Positions 13,125 to 63,898 of a DNA stretch of 64,000 bases are shown piece after piece; position 1 is the first letter of the stretch; every line of letters begins with the position of its first letter. The DNA is from an uncultured Chloroflexota bacterium. Lineage in GTDB: Bacteria > Chloroflexota > Anaerolineae > UBA4142 > SHND01. A program made the translations under genes and the position numbers. Location of the stretch: the NCBI GenBank assembly GCA_937870825.1, contig CALMZO010000213.1, forward strand, positions 35,392-99,391, in the 5' to 3' direction. The notes under the pieces were generated by a model. That model had not been told where the DNA came from. It did no database searches and was given only the letters and a program-made list of their open reading frames with translations.

Positions 13125-14159
13125 TTAGATTTTTTCGAGGTGCGGTGTGGTGCGGAGCTGTTCCAAGTTCGCCGCGCCGACCCCAAACATCGCCACGCGC
13201 AATTGTTTCACGAGCGCAAAAATTCCGTCCGTCGCGCTCTCGGCGGAAACGTTGGCGAGTTTCAACAGCGGCGATGCGAGCCCGACGAGCGACGCACCGA
13301 GCGCGATACATTTTGCAATTTCGATGCCGTTGCGAATGCCGCCGCTGGCAAAAAGGGGCAAGTCCGGCGCCGCCTTGCGCGCCTGAATCAAACTTTCCGC
13401 CGTCGGGATGCCCCAATCCCAGAACGCTGCGGCGAGTTGTTGCAGTTCCGCGTTGGGGGCGCGTTTCGCTTCGACGGCAGCCCATGATGTGCCGCCCGCG
13501 CCGGCAACATCGATCGCGCAGACTCCGGCATTCACCAACTGCCGGGCGGTCTTTTCGGAAATGCCAAAGCCGACCTCTTTGACAAGGACCGGCACTTGAA
13601 GCGCGCGGCACACGTGTTCAATTTTGTTGAGCACCCCGCTCCAATTGATGTTGCCGTGGTTTTGAACGGCTTCTTGCATCGGGTTCAAATGCAGAATGAG
13701 CGCGTCGGCTTGAATCATGTCCACTGCGCGTTGGCATTCGTCAATGCCATAGCCATAGTTCAGTTGAATCGCGCCAAGATTGGCAAAGAGCAAGATATCG
13801 GGCGCGAGGTCGCGGACGCGATACGTGCGCGCGAGCGCGGGGTCCGCAATTGCAGCGCGTTGCGAGCCGAGACCCATCGCGATGCCCGTCGCTTGCGCGG
13901 CTTGCGCGAGATTGCGATTGATGCGCTCGGCTTCGTGCGCGCCGCCGGTCATGGAAGATACAAGCAGCGGCGCGCGCAAAACTTTGCCAAAGAGCGTAAG
14001 GGAAGTATCAATCGCGTCGAGGTCAAGTTCGGGCAGCGCTTGGTGGACAAGGCGGTATTTTTCGAGTCCGGTGCTGACGTCGAAAAATTGAACATTCTCT
14101 TCGAGATTGATGCGAAGGTGTTCGACTTTGCGGTTACTCACAACAGTTTCGTCGGGCAT
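13125..14159 (-). CDS. fni: type 2 isopentenyl-diphosphate delta-isomerase
   Basis: [58 protein letters not shown] motifs. Confidence 0.93.
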
Positions 14160-51026: not shown

Positions 51027-51449
51027 ATGAATCCAAACTTTGTCCCCCCCGTCAACCCACAACAAATCGCTTCCCCCAGCCGCGACATTTACGCGGCGAT
51101 GGGTCAAGAAAATATCTCGCGCATGATTGACGATTTCTATATGGAACTGGAAAAATCGCCCATCCGCGAAATGTTTCCGCGCGATATGCGCGCGTCGGCG
51201 GAAAAATCTGCCGCGTTCTTTATTGGCCTGCTCGGCGGTCCGCCGCTGTATCATCAACGTTACGGCAATCCGATGATGCGCGCGCGCCACCTCCCCTTCC
51301 CCATCAATCAAGGCGCGCGTGATGAATGGCTTGCGTGTTTTGAACGCGTGCTGGAACACGCGACGGAACGCTACAAATTTCCTGCCGAACATCTGGAGGG
51401 CTTTCGAAAATTCTTGCACGGATTTTCGCTGTGGATGATGAATTGTTAG
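51027..51449 (+). CDS. truncated haemoglobin (group II-like globin)
   Basis: MIDDFYMELEKSPIREMFPRDM, FFIGLLGGPPLYHQRYGNPMMRARHLPFPI. Confidence 0.85.
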   Translation: MNPNFVPPVNPQQIASPSRDIYAAMGQENISRMIDDFYMELEKSPIREMFPRDMRASAEKSAAFFIGLLGGPPLYHQRYGNPMMRARHLPFPINQGARDEWLACFERVLEHATERYKFPAEHLEGFRKFLHGFSLWMMNC

Positions 51450-52992
51450 CCCCATAATTTTTGCGCGCGGGTAATTTGAGTGTTTCCGTACCCAAGCCGC
51501 AAGTCACAGACAATTCGCGCCCGTTCTCGCCGTATTGGACTTTGATTTCCAAATTCACCAGTCGAAATAGAGCGCGTTTCTCCTCGTATGTTGGTTTGCC
51601 CGCAAGTCTCGCACGAATCACACGCGCTGTTTCACGAATCGTCTCGATTTCAGCGTCGCCAAGTTCGCGCTTCCCAAGATGTGCGTCCAGTGTGTCGAGC
51701 ATTGCTACCAGCGAGTCTCGCTCATTGCCGATTCTATCAATCTCCTTTTTGATTGCTGCACGCGCGGATTCACTCTCGAATTCTCGCAAGTCTGTTGTAA
51801 GCTGTTCGATTTGTTTATCCGCGCGCCTTATCAAATTCTCCGTTGTCTCGCGACGTTCGCGCATTTTCTTTAACTCGTTTTCCCGGTTGGCAACGAATTC
51901 GTGAATGCCCTTTTCTAGTTTCGCCTCATCAGTCAAGAGGTCAACAAGCCAATTCCAGATAAGCGGCTCAAGCACCTCGACATTAATCATGCCCTCTTTG
52001 CAGTCGTGCCAGAGCCGTCCTTCTGCACGCGTTTGACATGTGTAGTAGTGATACTCGTACCTTCGGATTTTGCGTTTAATCTTGAAGCTACGCATCTTTA
52101 ATCCTGACAGTCCTTTCCCACAGCGGCATCTTGCAAACCCACTAAAGAGGTATGGATATTGCCGATTGTTGGGATGCAAGCGCGAATTGTGGTCAAGCAT
52201 GGCTTGGACTTCGCCCCAAGTTTCCTCGTCAAGGATTGCCAGATGGGGAAAATGAAGAACGCTCCCGTAAGAGGTAAAGATGCCAAGAAGTTGTTTGCCT
52301 CGTAACAAAGGGCGCAATGTACCTGTGCGCCAACCCCGCGCGCCGTATGCCGTTGGCACACCTTCATTGTTCAAGAGATTTATGATTGTCGTAATACCCA
52401 TTGGCTGATAGCCATTGCGCCCCAACACCATATCCACGATGCGGCGCACTGTTGCAGCTTGCATTTCATCTCTTTCTAACCGCGCGTCCGCGCCTTTTCC
52501 AACTTGGCGAAATCCATAAGGGGGACGCCCCGCCCCTACCCACTTTCCCGCTTTGGCTTTAGCAATCTTGCCGCGACGCGTTCGCTCTCTGATTTTCTCA
52601 CGCTCAAATTCTGCAATTACTCCCTCGACGTTTTCCAACAAGCGGCTTTCTGCGGTGTCCTCTGACTTTCCGCGATTCGCGTAATGAAGTTCAATCCCTG
52701 CGCGGTTGAACTCGTCGCGCAGAATGAGCAAGTGTGCCAAGTTTCGGCTAAGGCGGTCAGCCGCATATATGATTATCGCATCCGCCTCTTTGCGTTCAAT
52801 CATCTCACGCAAAATGTCTAGCGCAGGTCGGTCTAACTTCGCGCCGCTATAATCGTCTTGGAGTTCGCGCACAATCTTCATCCCTTTCTCGCGCGCGTAT
52901 TTTTGCATCGCCTCAATTTGAGTTGGCAGACTATAACCCTTTTCAGCTTGGTCATCCGTACTTACTCTTGCATAAATGACAGCCCGTTTCAT
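51304..52992 (-). CDS. large serine recombinase (resolvase + recombinase + zinc ribbon/coiled-coil)
   Basis: MKRAVIYARVSTDDQAEKGYSLPTQIEAMQKYA; YAADRLSRNLAHLLILRDEF; KWVGAGRPPYGFRQV; CRCGKGLSG zinc ribbon. Confidence 0.93.
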   Translation of the reverse strand: MKRAVIYARVSTDDQAEKGYSLPTQIEAMQKYAREKGMKIVRELQDDYSGAKLDRPALDILREMIERKEADAIIIYAADRLSRNLAHLLILRDEFNRAGIELHYANRGKSEDTAESRLLENVEGVIAEFEREKIRERTRRGKIAKAKAGKWVGAGRPPYGFRQVGKGADARLERDEMQAATVRRIVDMVLGRNGYQPMGITTIINLLNNEGVPTAYGARGWRTGTLRPLLRGKQLLGIFTSYGSVLHFPHLAILDEETWGEVQAMLDHNSRLHPNNRQYPYLFSGFARCRCGKGLSGLKMRSFKIKRKIRRYEYHYYTCQTRAEGRLWHDCKEGMINVEVLEPLIWNWLVDLLTDEAKLEKGIHEFVANRENELKKMRERRETTENLIRRADKQIEQLTTDLREFESESARAAIKKEIDRIGNERDSLVAMLDTLDAHLGKRELGDAEIETIRETARVIRARLAGKPTYEEKRALFRLVNLEIKVQYGENGRELSVTCGLGTETLKLPARKNYGANNSSSTAKIRARIFESPPDVRQEICSVPSRVPARVQNTQAIHHARLD

Positions 52993-53706: not shown

Positions 53707-53809
53707 GTTTTTTCTCTTTCGATTCAATGAAACGAGCAAGACATAGCGCGAGTGCGTGATGCAATCTTTTAGATTGCTACTCGGCTACACCTTGCTCGTG
53801 GGAAACAAA

Positions 53810-53835
53810 AAAACTCTATCGCGTGATAGAGTTTT
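53810..53835 (-). terminator. minus-strand intrinsic terminator/attenuator
   Basis: AAAACTCTATC-gcgt-GATAGAGTTTT; minus strand followed by a T run. Confidence 0.8.
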
Positions 53836-53848
53836 GGTATAATGCTAT

Positions 53849-53930
53849 TCAGCCCGTCAGATGTCACGCACATCTGGGGGTTAGCCGCGTGTAGGTGGTC
53901 GCAACACTTACGCGCGGTGTTTTTATGTTT
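53849..53930 (+). ncRNA. candidate small RNA B (two hairpins, second an intrinsic terminator)
   Basis: Extended -10 TGGTATAAT (53835-53843); CAGATGT-cacgc-ACATCTG; CCGCGTGTAGGTG-gtcgcaa-CACTTACGCGCGG + TGTTTTTATGTTTT. Confidence 0.5.
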
Positions 53931-53934
53931 TGAA

Positions 53935-53991
53935 AATACCTATCGTAACGATAGGTATTATAATTGAGTTTTTGGAAATGTCAATCTTTTT
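53935..53991 (-). promoter_or_regulatory. minus-strand sigma70 promoter with overlapping 25-bp palindromic operator
   Basis: TTGACA-16-TATAAT on the minus strand; AATACCTATCGT-a-ACGATAGGTATT perfect inverted repeat overlapping the -10/+1 region. Confidence 0.7.
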
Positions 53992-58372: not shown

Positions 58373-61357
58373 TCAAAGATTCTTTAGCAGTCCCGCGATA
58401 CTATCAAACCAATACGCGCGATATTTGTCGTCGGCGAGATTCTTGTCCTTCGTGTAAAGCGCGAGACGCACGCGCACAGTCAGGTTATCACGGTGAAGCG
58501 GTTTCGGATTGTCGTTGCCATCGGTAAAGAGACGTTGATAGCCGTTGACCTTATGCTGGTACGCGCTTTGTGTCATTCCTTTTGGGTCAACAAAGAGAAT
58601 GGTATAGTCATCGCCTTTTTGCATCCAGAAAACAAAGTCGGGATAGTATCCGCGCATCGCGTTTGCGATGGGGTCGTAATACGGAATGGAAATTTCATCG
58701 CGCGCTTCGTCAATCTTGCTGAATAGCCACCAATCGAATTGTTCAAATTTGCTGCCTTGTTCTTGGAGATAGCGGTCAAGGTCTTGAATGAATTTCACCT
58801 CGCTTGGTTCGCGGATAATGTGACGAATGTAATCGGCTTTGTCGGAGGGGTCGAGGATGACGGGCAAGTAATAATGATTGGCGAGATTCCAAATGTCAAT
58901 CACTTTGCCGTCATGCTCGAAGTGTTCTTTGTCTCGAATCGCCCAAAGGCGGCGAGTGAATTCTTGGGGTGGGAGAATCCCGTATTGGGCATTGAGTTCC
59001 GCGACTTGGTTTCTCGCATTTTGCACGCGCGCAATTTGTCCGCGCAGTGCTTCAAGTTCGTTCAGGTCTTGGAGCAATACTTGAATGTGTTTGTAATGAT
59101 TGATTTCATCGCCCAATGGTTCAAAGGATTCGTGTTCCTTTGGGATAATTTCGAGATGGTCGGTTAATTGGCGAATGAGCAGATTGAGATTTCCGAAACG
59201 GCGCGCGTTGTTTTCGGATTTCAAATAGCGGTCAGGTTCGGCGAGCGCGCAATGCAAATTTTTGATAGCGCGCGGCATGAGATTGTGATGCGCCCACAAG
59301 AGACGGTCATCCTGCAAATACGCGATGTATTGATTTAAGAGCGCGAGTTCTTGCGTTTCAATTTCAAACTTGGCGGGGTCAGTTTGGTCAATGACACGGT
59401 TCGCGGCATCGCGGTATTTGGGAACGAGTAACAGATGCGCGTCAATCGCGGCAATGTTCTGCGCCAACTCGATTTCATACGGCTTGCCTTCGCTTTGCGC
59501 TTGCTTCATCGTTTCGAGAACGGTTTGCAATGCTTGATATTTTGTGCCAAAGATGAAAAGCGATTCGAGTGCGTTGGCGTAGGGTTCAGCCGCTTGATAC
59601 TGCGCGGATTCGATTTCGCCTGCGGTAAAGAGTGTGGACAAGCGGCGGCGTTTGTTGCGTAACGGTTCAATCCGCACGCCGCGCCCGGTGGACTGCAAAA
59701 TGAATTTGCGCGCTTCTGTGCCTGTGCCAATGTTGATAAAGGTGATGACGTTCGGGCGCGGCGAATCCCATCCCTCGTAAAAGGAACGTGACCCCATGAG
59801 CAGATTGATAGTCGAATCATCGGCGTTCAATCGCTCGAAATACGTTTCGTCCTCAAATTCCTCGTTGATTTGAAATTCTGTCAGTTCTTGCTTGAGCCAA
59901 TTTGTGATATCGCCAATTTTGATGAGTGCGAAAGGACTGTCGGCGGGTTTCAGTTTGAGCGCGAGTTCTTGACGATTCGAGGGGCGCGTATTGATTTCAA
60001 TTTCGCCGTAAGCGTTGGAATTGAAAACGGCGGTCAAGAGGTCGGCGGGCGCGAGCGCGTTGAGCAAATTGGCATCGAGCGCAACGGGTTTGCCTTCAAA
60101 CAAGTATTCGGGGCGGTCTGCGAGTTCTTGGCGCAGTTCGTCGCGCGCCTGTGTCCAAAGCGCGGCATCGGGTGCGGACCCGGCGAGTTTGGCGAGGACG
60201 CGGAAAAAGCGTTTGAGGTCGGCGTCCTCTGTGTTGACGGAATTGACGAGCGCGAGCAATAGCGGGCGATGATAGGTGAGTTGTCGCGCACCATTCGCGG
60301 CTACATCGTTCGCGCGCAGCGCGTCGTATTGCTTGCGAATCGTCGCGAGCAGCATTAAACCTTTGAGAACGATTTTTTCTTTTTCTGCGCCCGTGTAATC
60401 GTCCTTTGCTTTGAACGCGGTGTTTTCTTGTTGCAATACCGCGATGTGTTTGCCATAGCCGCCGGAGGTGAAACGCGCTAGATTGAAATCATACGCGGTG
60501 GTGAGAATATCGCGGGTGTCGGTAAAGGTCGCGGAAAAGTTGAATAGAAAACCGTTGCGCGCAAGGATGCTGTAAATGTGTTGGCGTTTGGAATCTTCTT
60601 TGTCGCCCTTGTGCGCCTCGTCGAGCAGAACGTACCAATTTCCGTTTTGCTCGTAATTGCGATAGTTAATTGTTTTTTCTTTTTGAACGTCGCTGATGTT
60701 GTCGGAACGATAATAAAAAACGGTCAGGTCACGCGCGCCAAAGAGGGACGACATGCCGCGCTTGACTTCCGGGTATTCGCGCAAGTCGCGCAAGTGGATG
60801 TACAGTTCACTGCCTGCTGCGTTGAATTCGGCAACGTGCGTGCGGAGTTGCTCTAGCAAATCTTCGCGAAAGGTGAGTACGAGAATGTCATGCGCGGGAA
60901 TTTGTGAGAGCCGCGACAACTGCCAGAGCAATTCAATCAGTTTAACGAGGACAAGCGTTTTGCCGCTGCCCGTTGCCATCCAAAAACCGATGCGATTGAT
61001 AAAGTTTTCGTAGGAAATTTTTTCGTCTTGGATACTGTAGTACTCTGCCAGAATCTTTACAATGTCGCGCTTGGCGTTTTTAATGGAAATGTCCGCGTCT
61101 TTTCCCAAATCGTGGGCGCGATACATTTCCCAAAACGCGCGCTTGCGCGCAGCGTTGATGCTACCCTCTTCATTGGGTGAAAATGGCGCGGGCGCGGAAT
61201 AGTAATTCCACAGTGCTTTGAGCGCATTGAGCAGCGCGGCTTGCTGATAATCAAACAACTCCTTGCCGCGCGAAAATGCCGCGCGGTCAAGCGCAGACCA
61301 CGCGGGCGGCAAATTGCTGTTGGGAATGTTATTGAGGATGTGTTCGAGGGTTTGCAA
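58373..61357 (-). CDS. type III restriction enzyme Res-like DEAD/DEAH helicase-nuclease
   Basis: FWMATGSGKTLVLVKLIELL, VLLDEAHKGD, LMGSRSFYEGWDSPRPNVITFINIGTGTEARKFILQSTGRGVRI; C-terminal GYYPDFVFWMQKGDDYTILFVDPKG. Confidence 0.88.
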   Translation of the reverse strand: MQTLEHILNNIPNSNLPPAWSALDRAAFSRGKELFDYQQAALLNALKALWNYYSAPAPFSPNEEGSINAARKRAFWEMYRAHDLGKDADISIKNAKRDIVKILAEYYSIQDEKISYENFINRIGFWMATGSGKTLVLVKLIELLWQLSRLSQIPAHDILVLTFREDLLEQLRTHVAEFNAAGSELYIHLRDLREYPEVKRGMSSLFGARDLTVFYYRSDNISDVQKEKTINYRNYEQNGNWYVLLDEAHKGDKEDSKRQHIYSILARNGFLFNFSATFTDTRDILTTAYDFNLARFTSGGYGKHIAVLQQENTAFKAKDDYTGAEKEKIVLKGLMLLATIRKQYDALRANDVAANGARQLTYHRPLLLALVNSVNTEDADLKRFFRVLAKLAGSAPDAALWTQARDELRQELADRPEYLFEGKPVALDANLLNALAPADLLTAVFNSNAYGEIEINTRPSNRQELALKLKPADSPFALIKIGDITNWLKQELTEFQINEEFEDETYFERLNADDSTINLLMGSRSFYEGWDSPRPNVITFINIGTGTEARKFILQSTGRGVRIEPLRNKRRRLSTLFTAGEIESAQYQAAEPYANALESLFIFGTKYQALQTVLETMKQAQSEGKPYEIELAQNIAAIDAHLLLVPKYRDAANRVIDQTDPAKFEIETQELALLNQYIAYLQDDRLLWAHHNLMPRAIKNLHCALAEPDRYLKSENNARRFGNLNLLIRQLTDHLEIIPKEHESFEPLGDEINHYKHIQVLLQDLNELEALRGQIARVQNARNQVAELNAQYGILPPQEFTRRLWAIRDKEHFEHDGKVIDIWNLANHYYLPVILDPSDKADYIRHIIREPSEVKFIQDLDRYLQEQGSKFEQFDWWLFSKIDEARDEISIPYYDPIANAMRGYYPDFVFWMQKGDDYTILFVDPKGMTQSAYQHKVNGYQRLFTDGNDNPKPLHRDNLTVRVRLALYTKDKNLADDKYRAYWFDSIAGLLKNL

Positions 61358-61360
61358 CGA

Positions 61361-63898
61361 TTACCACCAAATCAACGGCTTGATGAAATGCCAATCGGGA
61401 TTATGGAGATTGGCGGTTGTGCCATCGGTAAATTCAACTGTGTCGGCAGTAATGCGCTTGATGGGTTTGCCTGTGACGCATGAGAGCGTTTCGGCAACGT
61501 CAATGTTTGGATAGAGTTTCGTCAATTCCACGTTGACGACATTTCCGTCTGCATTCAACTCTACCGCGTCGAGCATCTTCGTATCGCGCAAGAAAACATA
61601 TTGACTGTATGGAGATTGCCCCACATTCAAGAGGGGCGCATCATCTTCGCCGTATTTGGTTTGGCGCAATGTGTCCTCGTATTGTTCAAGGTCAAAGTAT
61701 TTGGCAAAATGGGAAATTCCTTTGCCCCCCTCTTGCGCGTGTCCGTCTTTCCATTTGTCGGAAAAGACAACTTTTTTCACGCGCGGCAAGATGACGGTGT
61801 TAAAGTGTTCGCCCACATCAATAAGAATATATTTTCGATTCTTGTTATCAAGACGATTGATATTTATGACAGCGTGAGCAGTTGTGCCACTGCCCGCGAA
61901 AAAGTCTAATACGAAATCTGACGCTTGCGCCCGACAAACTCTGATAGCTTCTTCTACAGCATATACAGATTTCGGAAATGAAAAGAGTTGTGAGACGCCA
62001 AAGAGTGAGCGTAATAGACTTGTGCCGTATGCAGTAGCGTTGAACAAAGAATTATCCCAATTTGTTTTTGGTAATACTCCATCATCTCCCAATCGGAATT
62101 TAACCTCAATCGTTAATTTGCCTTGTCTATTATTGCGAACGCGAAGGTCATCCAACCGCTTGCGGAGCGATTCTACGCCAAGTCTCCATGTATATTCTGT
62201 CCCGTCATCGGTTTTTGGATAAATGACCTGCTCGTTTTCTCTCGGTTCTTCTTCAAGTATCCAAGTCTCGATTTCCTTGTCCCAATCCATTTCGGGAATT
62301 CGCGCGCTATCAACTGCCACAAACAATGGATAATGTAGTCTTGGTCTCTCCTCACGAAAATCATTCTGCCCACCAGACCGAAGGAAATTTCGCCATTGGT
62401 AATTCCCCTTGTCATCTACTTGGTCGTACTGGGCAAGTTGTTCATCTGTTCGCGGGACAGTTCCGATTGACGCCTTCTCTGTTGCTCCAACAAAAATGGC
62501 GTATTCATTGGCAATTGAAAAGCCCTTTACAGTTGACCTGCCAGAAGGATTGTTCCTAATAGAAACTAGACCAAGTTGATTTTCTTGACCGTAGATTTGT
62601 TCCATCAGGGATTTGAGCGCGGCAAGTTCAACATGGTCAATCGTAATACAAAGAATACCATCTTTTTTTAGCAGGGCTTTTGCAAGAGCAAGGCGATTTT
62701 CGAGTAAGGTCATCCATGATGAATGTTTGTAGTTATTGGAATAGATTATTTCGGACGCATCGGTATTGTATGGCGGGTCAGTATAAATTGCCTGAACGCG
62801 TTGCGCGAATTTTGGTTGAATTGTTTTTAGTGCTTGATAGTTTTCGCTATGCACAAGCCAACCGTCGAGCGCGTCATCAAGATTGTCAAAGAGCGCAATG
62901 ATTTCGAGTTCAAGGTCGGGGAAATGTTTAGTGTCGAGAGGCAGAAAACGATAGCGCGCGTATGGAGAGTCGCCCACAAAATTTTGTTGTTTGGGAAATT
63001 CGGGCGTCCAGTCCGCCTCAATCATGCCCAAGTCGCGCCATTCCGTAATTTGCGCCGCGATATTCGGATGCGCCCAAAGTTTTTCTACAAGCGCGGGCGC
63101 GCGGTCTAGCAGTTTGTCGAGCGTGATGATGTAATGGCTGTTGAGAACAAATTTCGGTTTGTTCCAAATCTTGACCAGTTCATCCTCGAATTGCGCGATG
63201 AAATCAATAATCTTGAATGCGATTTCTTCAAGCGTTTGTAGTTCGCGGATGCGCTTGGCATCCCAAATCGTCTTGCCGTCAAAGAGGTATTGATACATCC
63301 ACAACTTGAATTGCTCGCGCAAAAAGGCGCGGGCATTCTTGTTGATGAAATAGTCCACTTCGCTTTGACGTTCAAAGATGCGGATGGCGCGGTCTAGGGT
63401 GTCGGCGTCCAAAGCGATGCCGTTTTCTTTCGCTGCCTTGAGGATGTCCTTTTCTTTGGTCTTGGTGTTGCCTTTGGCATAGGCGACGCTCAAAACAATC
63501 GCGCCATCGTTCACCGCTTGAAACTCGTAAATCAGTTCGCGCTTTTCGTTCGCCTTTTTATGTTCCACTTTGCTCGCGTCAAAGATAAATTTTTGTCCGT
63601 CCACATCAAGCGTCATGCTCTGAAAGAGCCGGTCAGTCTTGACGTAATAGAGCATGTGCGTTTTCCAAAACAAAATCACATCGCGGTCATCGGTATAGAC
63701 CTGCTCGTAAATGCGCCGATGCAACGGCGTATAGCGAAAATAAATCGAGCCGCTTTCGGAAAAATAGCGATGGAAAAAATCATAGAGTTTGTCCAGCAAT
63801 TCATCGCGGAATTCGGGGAACGGCGCGAGCGCAGCGTCAATGTCCTTTTGGAGTTGGGGAAAAACCCCTTGCTCGAAATAGCGCGCTTTAATTTTCAT
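61361..63898 (-). CDS. type III-like site-specific DNA methyltransferase (Mod)
   Basis: IYTDPPYNTDASEIIYSNNYKHSSW and DFVLDFFAGSGTTAHAVI (beta order), 3 nt upstream of res. Confidence 0.9.
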   Translation of the reverse strand: MKIKARYFEQGVFPQLQKDIDAALAPFPEFRDELLDKLYDFFHRYFSESGSIYFRYTPLHRRIYEQVYTDDRDVILFWKTHMLYYVKTDRLFQSMTLDVDGQKFIFDASKVEHKKANEKRELIYEFQAVNDGAIVLSVAYAKGNTKTKEKDILKAAKENGIALDADTLDRAIRIFERQSEVDYFINKNARAFLREQFKLWMYQYLFDGKTIWDAKRIRELQTLEEIAFKIIDFIAQFEDELVKIWNKPKFVLNSHYIITLDKLLDRAPALVEKLWAHPNIAAQITEWRDLGMIEADWTPEFPKQQNFVGDSPYARYRFLPLDTKHFPDLELEIIALFDNLDDALDGWLVHSENYQALKTIQPKFAQRVQAIYTDPPYNTDASEIIYSNNYKHSSWMTLLENRLALAKALLKKDGILCITIDHVELAALKSLMEQIYGQENQLGLVSIRNNPSGRSTVKGFSIANEYAIFVGATEKASIGTVPRTDEQLAQYDQVDDKGNYQWRNFLRSGGQNDFREERPRLHYPLFVAVDSARIPEMDWDKEIETWILEEEPRENEQVIYPKTDDGTEYTWRLGVESLRKRLDDLRVRNNRQGKLTIEVKFRLGDDGVLPKTNWDNSLFNATAYGTSLLRSLFGVSQLFSFPKSVYAVEEAIRVCRAQASDFVLDFFAGSGTTAHAVININRLDNKNRKYILIDVGEHFNTVILPRVKKVVFSDKWKDGHAQEGGKGISHFAKYFDLEQYEDTLRQTKYGEDDAPLLNVGQSPYSQYVFLRDTKMLDAVELNADGNVVNVELTKLYPNIDVAETLSCVTGKPIKRITADTVEFTDGTTANLHNPDWHFIKPLIWW

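Follow-up and report, generated by a model that had tools for sequence, protein, structure and literature searches.

The window, that is, the whole stretch of DNA analyzed here, comprises 64,000 nucleotides of an uncultured Chloroflexota bacterium of the class Anaerolineae (GenBank assembly GCA_937870825.1, contig CALMZO010000213.1, positions 35,392 to 99,391), whose genome is a draft with an estimated contamination of 5%. As shown in Table 1, its minus strand carries, in the order of reading, the gene of an AlpA-like helix-turn-helix (HTH) protein, a sigma-70 promoter, a leader, an intrinsic terminator, small open reading frames (ORFs) and the gene of a large serine recombinase (LSR). The element was tested for being of the LSR type, and the Resolvase, Recombinase and zinc-ribbon domains were found by Pfam to be united in one protein. 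No flanking att repeats longer than 11 nt were detected, in a window that stops at the end of the contig. The last 50 or so codons of the LSR gene (51304–51455) overlap a bacterial globin gene of the opposite strand (51027–51449, plus) at its 3' end, and the coding sequence of the recombinase C-terminus seems to run across the insertion junction, in such a way that excision would alter it. In another species of the genus (genome G003), a homologous element (locus L009, 963–13916) interrupts an SDR-type gene, the pieces of which lie at 963–1448 and 13497–13916, and the stop codon of the recombinase is found at the junction with this gene. Beside the element of the window, two large minus-strand ORFs (58373–63898) resemble a type III restriction-modification pair (Res and Mod), as judged by motifs only.

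Table 1. Features of the control region and of the genes around it (positions in the window; G003, another species of the genus)
Feature	Position	Strand	Remarks
LSR gene, 562 aa	51304–52992	-	Presumed controlled gene; Pfam Resolvase (E 1.3e-38), Recombinase, Zn_ribbon_recom
Second small ORF, 77 aa	53059–53292	-	No Pfam match
First small ORF, 70 aa	53494–53706	-	SWIM-like CxC..CxH zinc-finger motif by eye; no Pfam match; conserved in G003
Hairpin 1 (long, imperfect)	53733–53798	-	Within the 5' UTR of the first small ORF
Sense-strand intrinsic terminator	53810–53835	-	Proposed attenuator; 11 bp, then TTTTTTT; 27 nt identical in G003
Antisense promoter, extended -10 TGGTATAAT	53835–53843	+	Just 5' of the two plus-strand hairpins
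Predicted antisense RNA, about 75 nt	53850–53923	+	Two stem-loops, GGTTAG joint, U-rich tail after the second
Hairpin 3	53853–53880		CAGATGT/ACATCTG stem extended by CCC/GGG; better paired on the plus strand
Plus-strand terminator	53884–53918	+	Second stem-loop of the antisense RNA; 14 pairs, then GTTTTTATG
25-bp perfect palindrome AATACCTATCGTAACGATAGGTATT	53935–53959		Covers the sense -10 and the expected start
Sense promoter TTGACA-16-TATAAT	53957–53984	-	12/12 consensus; start expected near 53950
AlpA-like protein gene, 70 aa	53981–54193	-	Pfam HTH_17 (E 5e-7); upstream partner of the control region

All the hairpins and terminators, the palindrome and the TTGACA-16-TATAAT promoter that the sequence-only reading had listed in this region were found where it had placed them, its 13-bp plus-strand terminator (53885–53917) becoming a slightly longer stem here (Table 1). 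What it had overlooked was the plus-strand promoter of the extended -10 type with a small antisense gene behind it, and the preference of the hairpins at 53852–53918 for the plus strand, on which they pair far better due to G-U pairs. The sense and antisense promoters are convergent and lie about 120 bp apart. Both strands were folded, one of the checks that had been proposed, and the plus strand of 53726–53930 reached -90.1 kcal/mol, against -57.4 ± 4.1 kcal/mol for shuffled sequences (z -8.0; 0 of 200 shuffles), with a z of -5.7 against shuffles for the hairpin cluster on the minus strand. The hairpins and the two terminators are genuine features, well beyond chance, and together they form one unit. 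In the surrounding 8 kb single terminator-like or promoter-like sites are as frequent as in shuffles, so that the weight rests on the combination of the parts and on their conservation. Read on the minus strand, hairpin 3 has a loop (GUGCGUGA) complementary to the UCACGC of the terminator loop and of hairpin 1 (53733–53880), a match noticed by eye and only in the window and G003, through which a loop-loop contact is possible.

A DNA search of 99 related genomes gave the G003 locus, a 73% identical stretch with the same order as in the window: AlpA-like gene, TTGACT-16-TATAAT promoter, hairpins, terminator, hairpin 1 and zinc-finger-like ORF. The stem of hairpin 3 changes there from CAGATGT/ACATCTG to AAATTGT/ACAATTT around an unchanged loop, and hairpin 1 retains its outer stem and the TAGC/GCTA, its inner hairpin being missing. 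Another match of the search, in the genome G015, fell in coding DNA and was discarded as due to chance. The palindrome, previously proposed as a repressor site, is absent from this nearest homologous locus and occurs once in the genome; it is thus at most a private operator of the window copy, and was dropped as a conserved one.

When the AlpA-like protein alone was used for the search, further loci were found in the taxonomic order, and the antisense RNA adjoins the AlpA-like genes detected in this way. The same hairpin block lies 3' of the AlpA-like gene in eight loci besides G003 (L012, L014–L020). For scanning loci, an AlpA alignment of 4 members was usable and one of 16 members was too divergent; no relatives of the AlpA-like protein of the window were found in viral contigs. 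The ten aligned sequences (the window, G003 and the eight others) share an extended -10-like TGnTAnAAT or near, AGCC and a first stem, followed by a GGTTAG-type linker, a second stem of 14 bp and a U-rich end. From them the covariance model R1 was built, and a second one, R2, was built only from Chloroflexota loci; the E-values of the models built here are rough. The window matches the covariance model at 53833–53923 of the plus strand with 77.1 bits, and its own genome holds seven matches to the RNA model. The search of related genomes with a covariance model, also among the proposed checks, gave R1 matches in 73 of 396 genomes of the class Anaerolineae, belonging to 50 of 222 genera, and the RNA was found in 41 of 400 genomes of other Chloroflexota classes. 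Named hosts are Chloroflexota, mostly Anaerolineae, such as Leptolinea sp. HRD-7, in whose complete genome (AP024710.1) the RNA lies at about 1278717–1278805 on the plus strand. An Rfam search of the window at gathering and relaxed thresholds returned no family at cut-off, and its weak matches were judged to be chance. The RNA family is widespread and apparently uncatalogued.

The hairpins are conserved in homologous elements, and so is their pairing. In 61 loci aligned to the model, covariation was 0.628, against 0.191 ± 0.011 in shuffled and at most 0.133 in slid alignments, and 365 double-changed cells were counted against 99 in shuffled ones, counts that lean towards structure since the alignment was fitted to the model, and that come from related loci which are not independent. 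In the second stem (helix 3 of the alignment), double changes affect 12 of the 14 pairs, and 96.5% of the cells are paired. At one pair, G-U is found in every one of the 60 distinct rows, and at others U-G is preferred; on the other strand these pairs would be C-A mismatches, which identifies the folded RNA as the plus-strand, antisense one. The TAnAAT positions of the antisense -10 are conserved in 97–100% of the 61 aligned loci and the G of the TG in 82%, and the U-tract of the antisense RNA itself is weak in many relatives. Judged from these alignments, the conserved two-hairpin structure of the antisense RNA is beyond doubt.

The neighbours of the RNA were analyzed in 62 loci with longer flanks. 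The calling of these genes relied on open reading frames, which makes the number of loci with a recombinase approximate: an LSR lies downstream on the sense strand in 43 of the 62. The LSR ORFs found add up to 49, all of them on that strand and two located upstream of the RNA. An AlpA-like ORF precedes the RNA by 5–111 nt on the sense strand in 26 of the 62. In the remaining 19 loci, some of them at contig ends, no downstream LSR was found, showing that recombinases are not the only genes to which the control is linked; other downstream genes, named by eye, code for actin-like ParM and AAA-ATPase proteins. A ParM-type gene followed by an ORF of about 90 aa was observed in L064, L077, L079, L092, L102 and L130, with a serine recombinase after this ORF in Chloroflexota loci. 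Two copies of the RNA in the genome of the window (L095, L096) precede AAA-ATPase-like genes and not recombinases. A sub-group of the RNA (L067, L080, L087) lies directly 3' of a tyrosine-recombinase-like gene (L067, L087), and tRNA genes are found near the RNA in the related loci L039 and L049.

Sense promoters scoring at least 11 were present in 50% of the loci and in 0.6% of the controls, and a strong sense terminator (-15 kcal/mol or lower) within 130 nt past the antisense promoter in 89%, compared with 6% of random windows; in the window and G003 the script chose hairpin 1 as this terminator, the one at 53810–53835 being there as well. At the level of sequence comparison, these data establish the antisense RNA together with its strand and its promoter, and also a sense promoter that faces it, a terminator on the sense strand and the recombinase downstream. 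With the leader, the antisense gene and the sense terminator conserved across the Anaerolineae, and with a serine recombinase gene following them on the sense strand, two earlier suggestions, that of a recombinase operon with an attenuated leader and that of a pair of overlapping antisense small RNAs, are both well supported and turn out to be one and the same thing.

We propose that an integrative element controls its integrase operon at this locus through an antisense RNA, by transcription attenuation (with a probability of around 0.7), and that this small RNA most likely decides whether the DNA-inserting enzyme is made. The minus-strand promoter would read the leader, the intrinsic terminator, the two small ORFs and the serine recombinase gene, and the plus-strand promoter would produce the RNA with two stem-loops, perfectly complementary to the leader; we infer that both transcripts exist. 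The antisense RNA would pair with the nascent leader, beginning by loop-loop contact, and this pairing would cause termination by favouring the terminator, leaving the operon off, in such a way that the recombinase would be made only when transcription from the sense promoter gets ahead of the antisense RNA. The HTH protein encoded upstream may act at the control region and tune the balance between sense and antisense, a role for the AlpA-like protein that its position suggests. A complementarity of the leader to its own terminator 5' arm higher than that to swapped arms was detected (P 1.5e-4, n = 56; after dereplication P 0.002, n = 38), and partition-function folds of nascent leaders agreed with this, with a difference of +0.107 ± 0.025 of own over swapped arms. 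In the window copy no antiterminator was found (0.17 vs 0.35 with swapped arms), and G003 likewise failed. The antiterminator signal is a family average of moderate effect; given this and its failure in these two copies, we infer attenuation as the most likely mechanism.

This layout is known from the attenuation systems of pT181 and pIP501 (RNAI/RNAII and RNAIII), in which a regulator gene, a promoter, a leader with a convergent antisense gene, a terminator and the controlled gene follow one another. As in them, the antisense gene of the window is convergent within the leader and lies upstream of an intrinsic terminator, but the operon encodes a recombinase instead of a Rep protein, the RNA is different, and the attenuation is putative here.

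The closest known RNA is SymR (RF01809). R2 matches symR of E. coli K-12 over its full length with 45.2 bits (E 3e-13, a rough value), including the position of a -10-like TAGAAT, and both RNAs have two stem-loops, a UUAG linker, a second stem topped by GUG..CAC and a TAnAAT promoter position. The symR promoter lies inside the symE ORF, and SymR represses the translation of symE (PMC1891008). An RNA of this kind could block the translation of the downstream ORF or trigger mRNA decay, the terminator being incidental, and in many viral loci (see below) the antisense promoter does lie inside the 5' end of the downstream ORF, as in symE. In the window, however, the antisense RNA is in the leader of two small ORFs and an LSR gene, upstream of a terminator, and is not antisense to the start of a SymE/AbrB-like toxin gene; it ends well upstream of the first start codon (around 53706), from which the terminator and hairpin 1 separate it. 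This, together with the sense terminator conserved in most of the Chloroflexota loci, makes such control of translation or mRNA decay an unlikely explanation.

The Rfam cut-off of symR (61 bits) was not reached: the window had no match, the best related locus gave 41.2 bits, and 0 of 100 Anaerolineae genomes passed. The best Rfam family at the RNA in related loci was mostly symR, always below the cut-off (33–41 bits vs 61), and in the 17 viral contigs tested no Rfam match was found at the RNA. A degenerate pattern taken from the alignment was found in 54 viral contigs, and 54 of 54 match the model, matches that are not independent since the pattern is part of the model, and that also span positions which the pattern left open. 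Two of these 54 records are Arsenophonus plasmids, with SymR-like RNAs near replication genes (L152, 5406–5497; L160, 471–562 and 1689–1779), two of which overlap the start of a small ORF ending in RQRTRILNRVGGAV. Two named phages with antirepressors similar to that of L146 showed no clear copy of the RNA. Common descent with SymR is likely from these similarities, and convergence would be possible for an RNA of 77 nt. Whether a single antisense-RNA superfamily spans Chloroflexota integrative elements, phages and proteobacterial plasmids, with SymR as a domesticated member and the serine-integrase attenuator as its use in Chloroflexota, we regard as evenly balanced; sibling elements in a genome may then cross-repress one another through shared loops.

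The convergent promoters could also act by transcriptional interference, switched by the HTH protein, with a minor role for the RNA itself. In many loci strong promoters face each other at a distance of about 120 bp, and the HTH gene is adjacent in 26 of the 62, which agrees with this, but interference needs neither compensatory changes in the stems nor fixed linker and loop residues, and both are seen, so we consider it improbable. Still harder to sustain is an ordinary intergenic region, with two insulating terminators and a repressor palindrome lacking a common function: the chance frequency of single sites in the surrounding 8 kb would suit it, and it is contradicted by the covariation and by the order and gene partners conserved across 50 genera. 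Finally, an origin of replication or transfer, suggested by the hairpins and by a Prim-Pol gene about 1 kb upstream of the control region, has next to no credibility, as the same RNA adjoins very different gene sets with a recombinase as the recurring partner, and conservation is seen in promoters, RNA pairing and terminators. From the sequence-only reading, the leader with its antisense RNA is well supported, the origin is without support, and the repressor palindrome is at most private to the window copy.

Other known RNAs were compared with that of the window. In the arc-sar-ant region of P22, according to its annotation, sar is also an antisense RNA between the gene of a small DNA-binding regulator and a controlled gene, but one hairpin only matches the model (11.9 bits, E 0.059, a rough value). 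The c4 RNA of P1 is annotated as a small phage RNA with the leader of a phage operon as its binding partner, and the model gave no match at c4. In P1 an antisense promoter is also annotated over the 5' end of kilA (L206, 2923–2951), where the model has no match. The int-alpA RNA motif is, by its name, associated with integrase and alpA genes. It is listed among annotated small RNAs (PMC12370729). No Rfam match to int-alpA was found in the window or related loci, its presence among the 4227 families searched being assumed. In the literature on antisense control of serine recombinases or on Chloroflexota antisense RNAs, we found no description of such a system.

To our knowledge, the control of large serine integrases is poorly understood, and the known controls are protein directionality factors and repressors. 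An antisense RNA conserved before LSRs across the phylum would offer a specific and testable RNA switch for integration and excision, and could serve as a marker for finding LSR elements. SymR, which is so far represented in Rfam by one enterobacterial case only, would gain many relatives and a likely origin in mobile elements.
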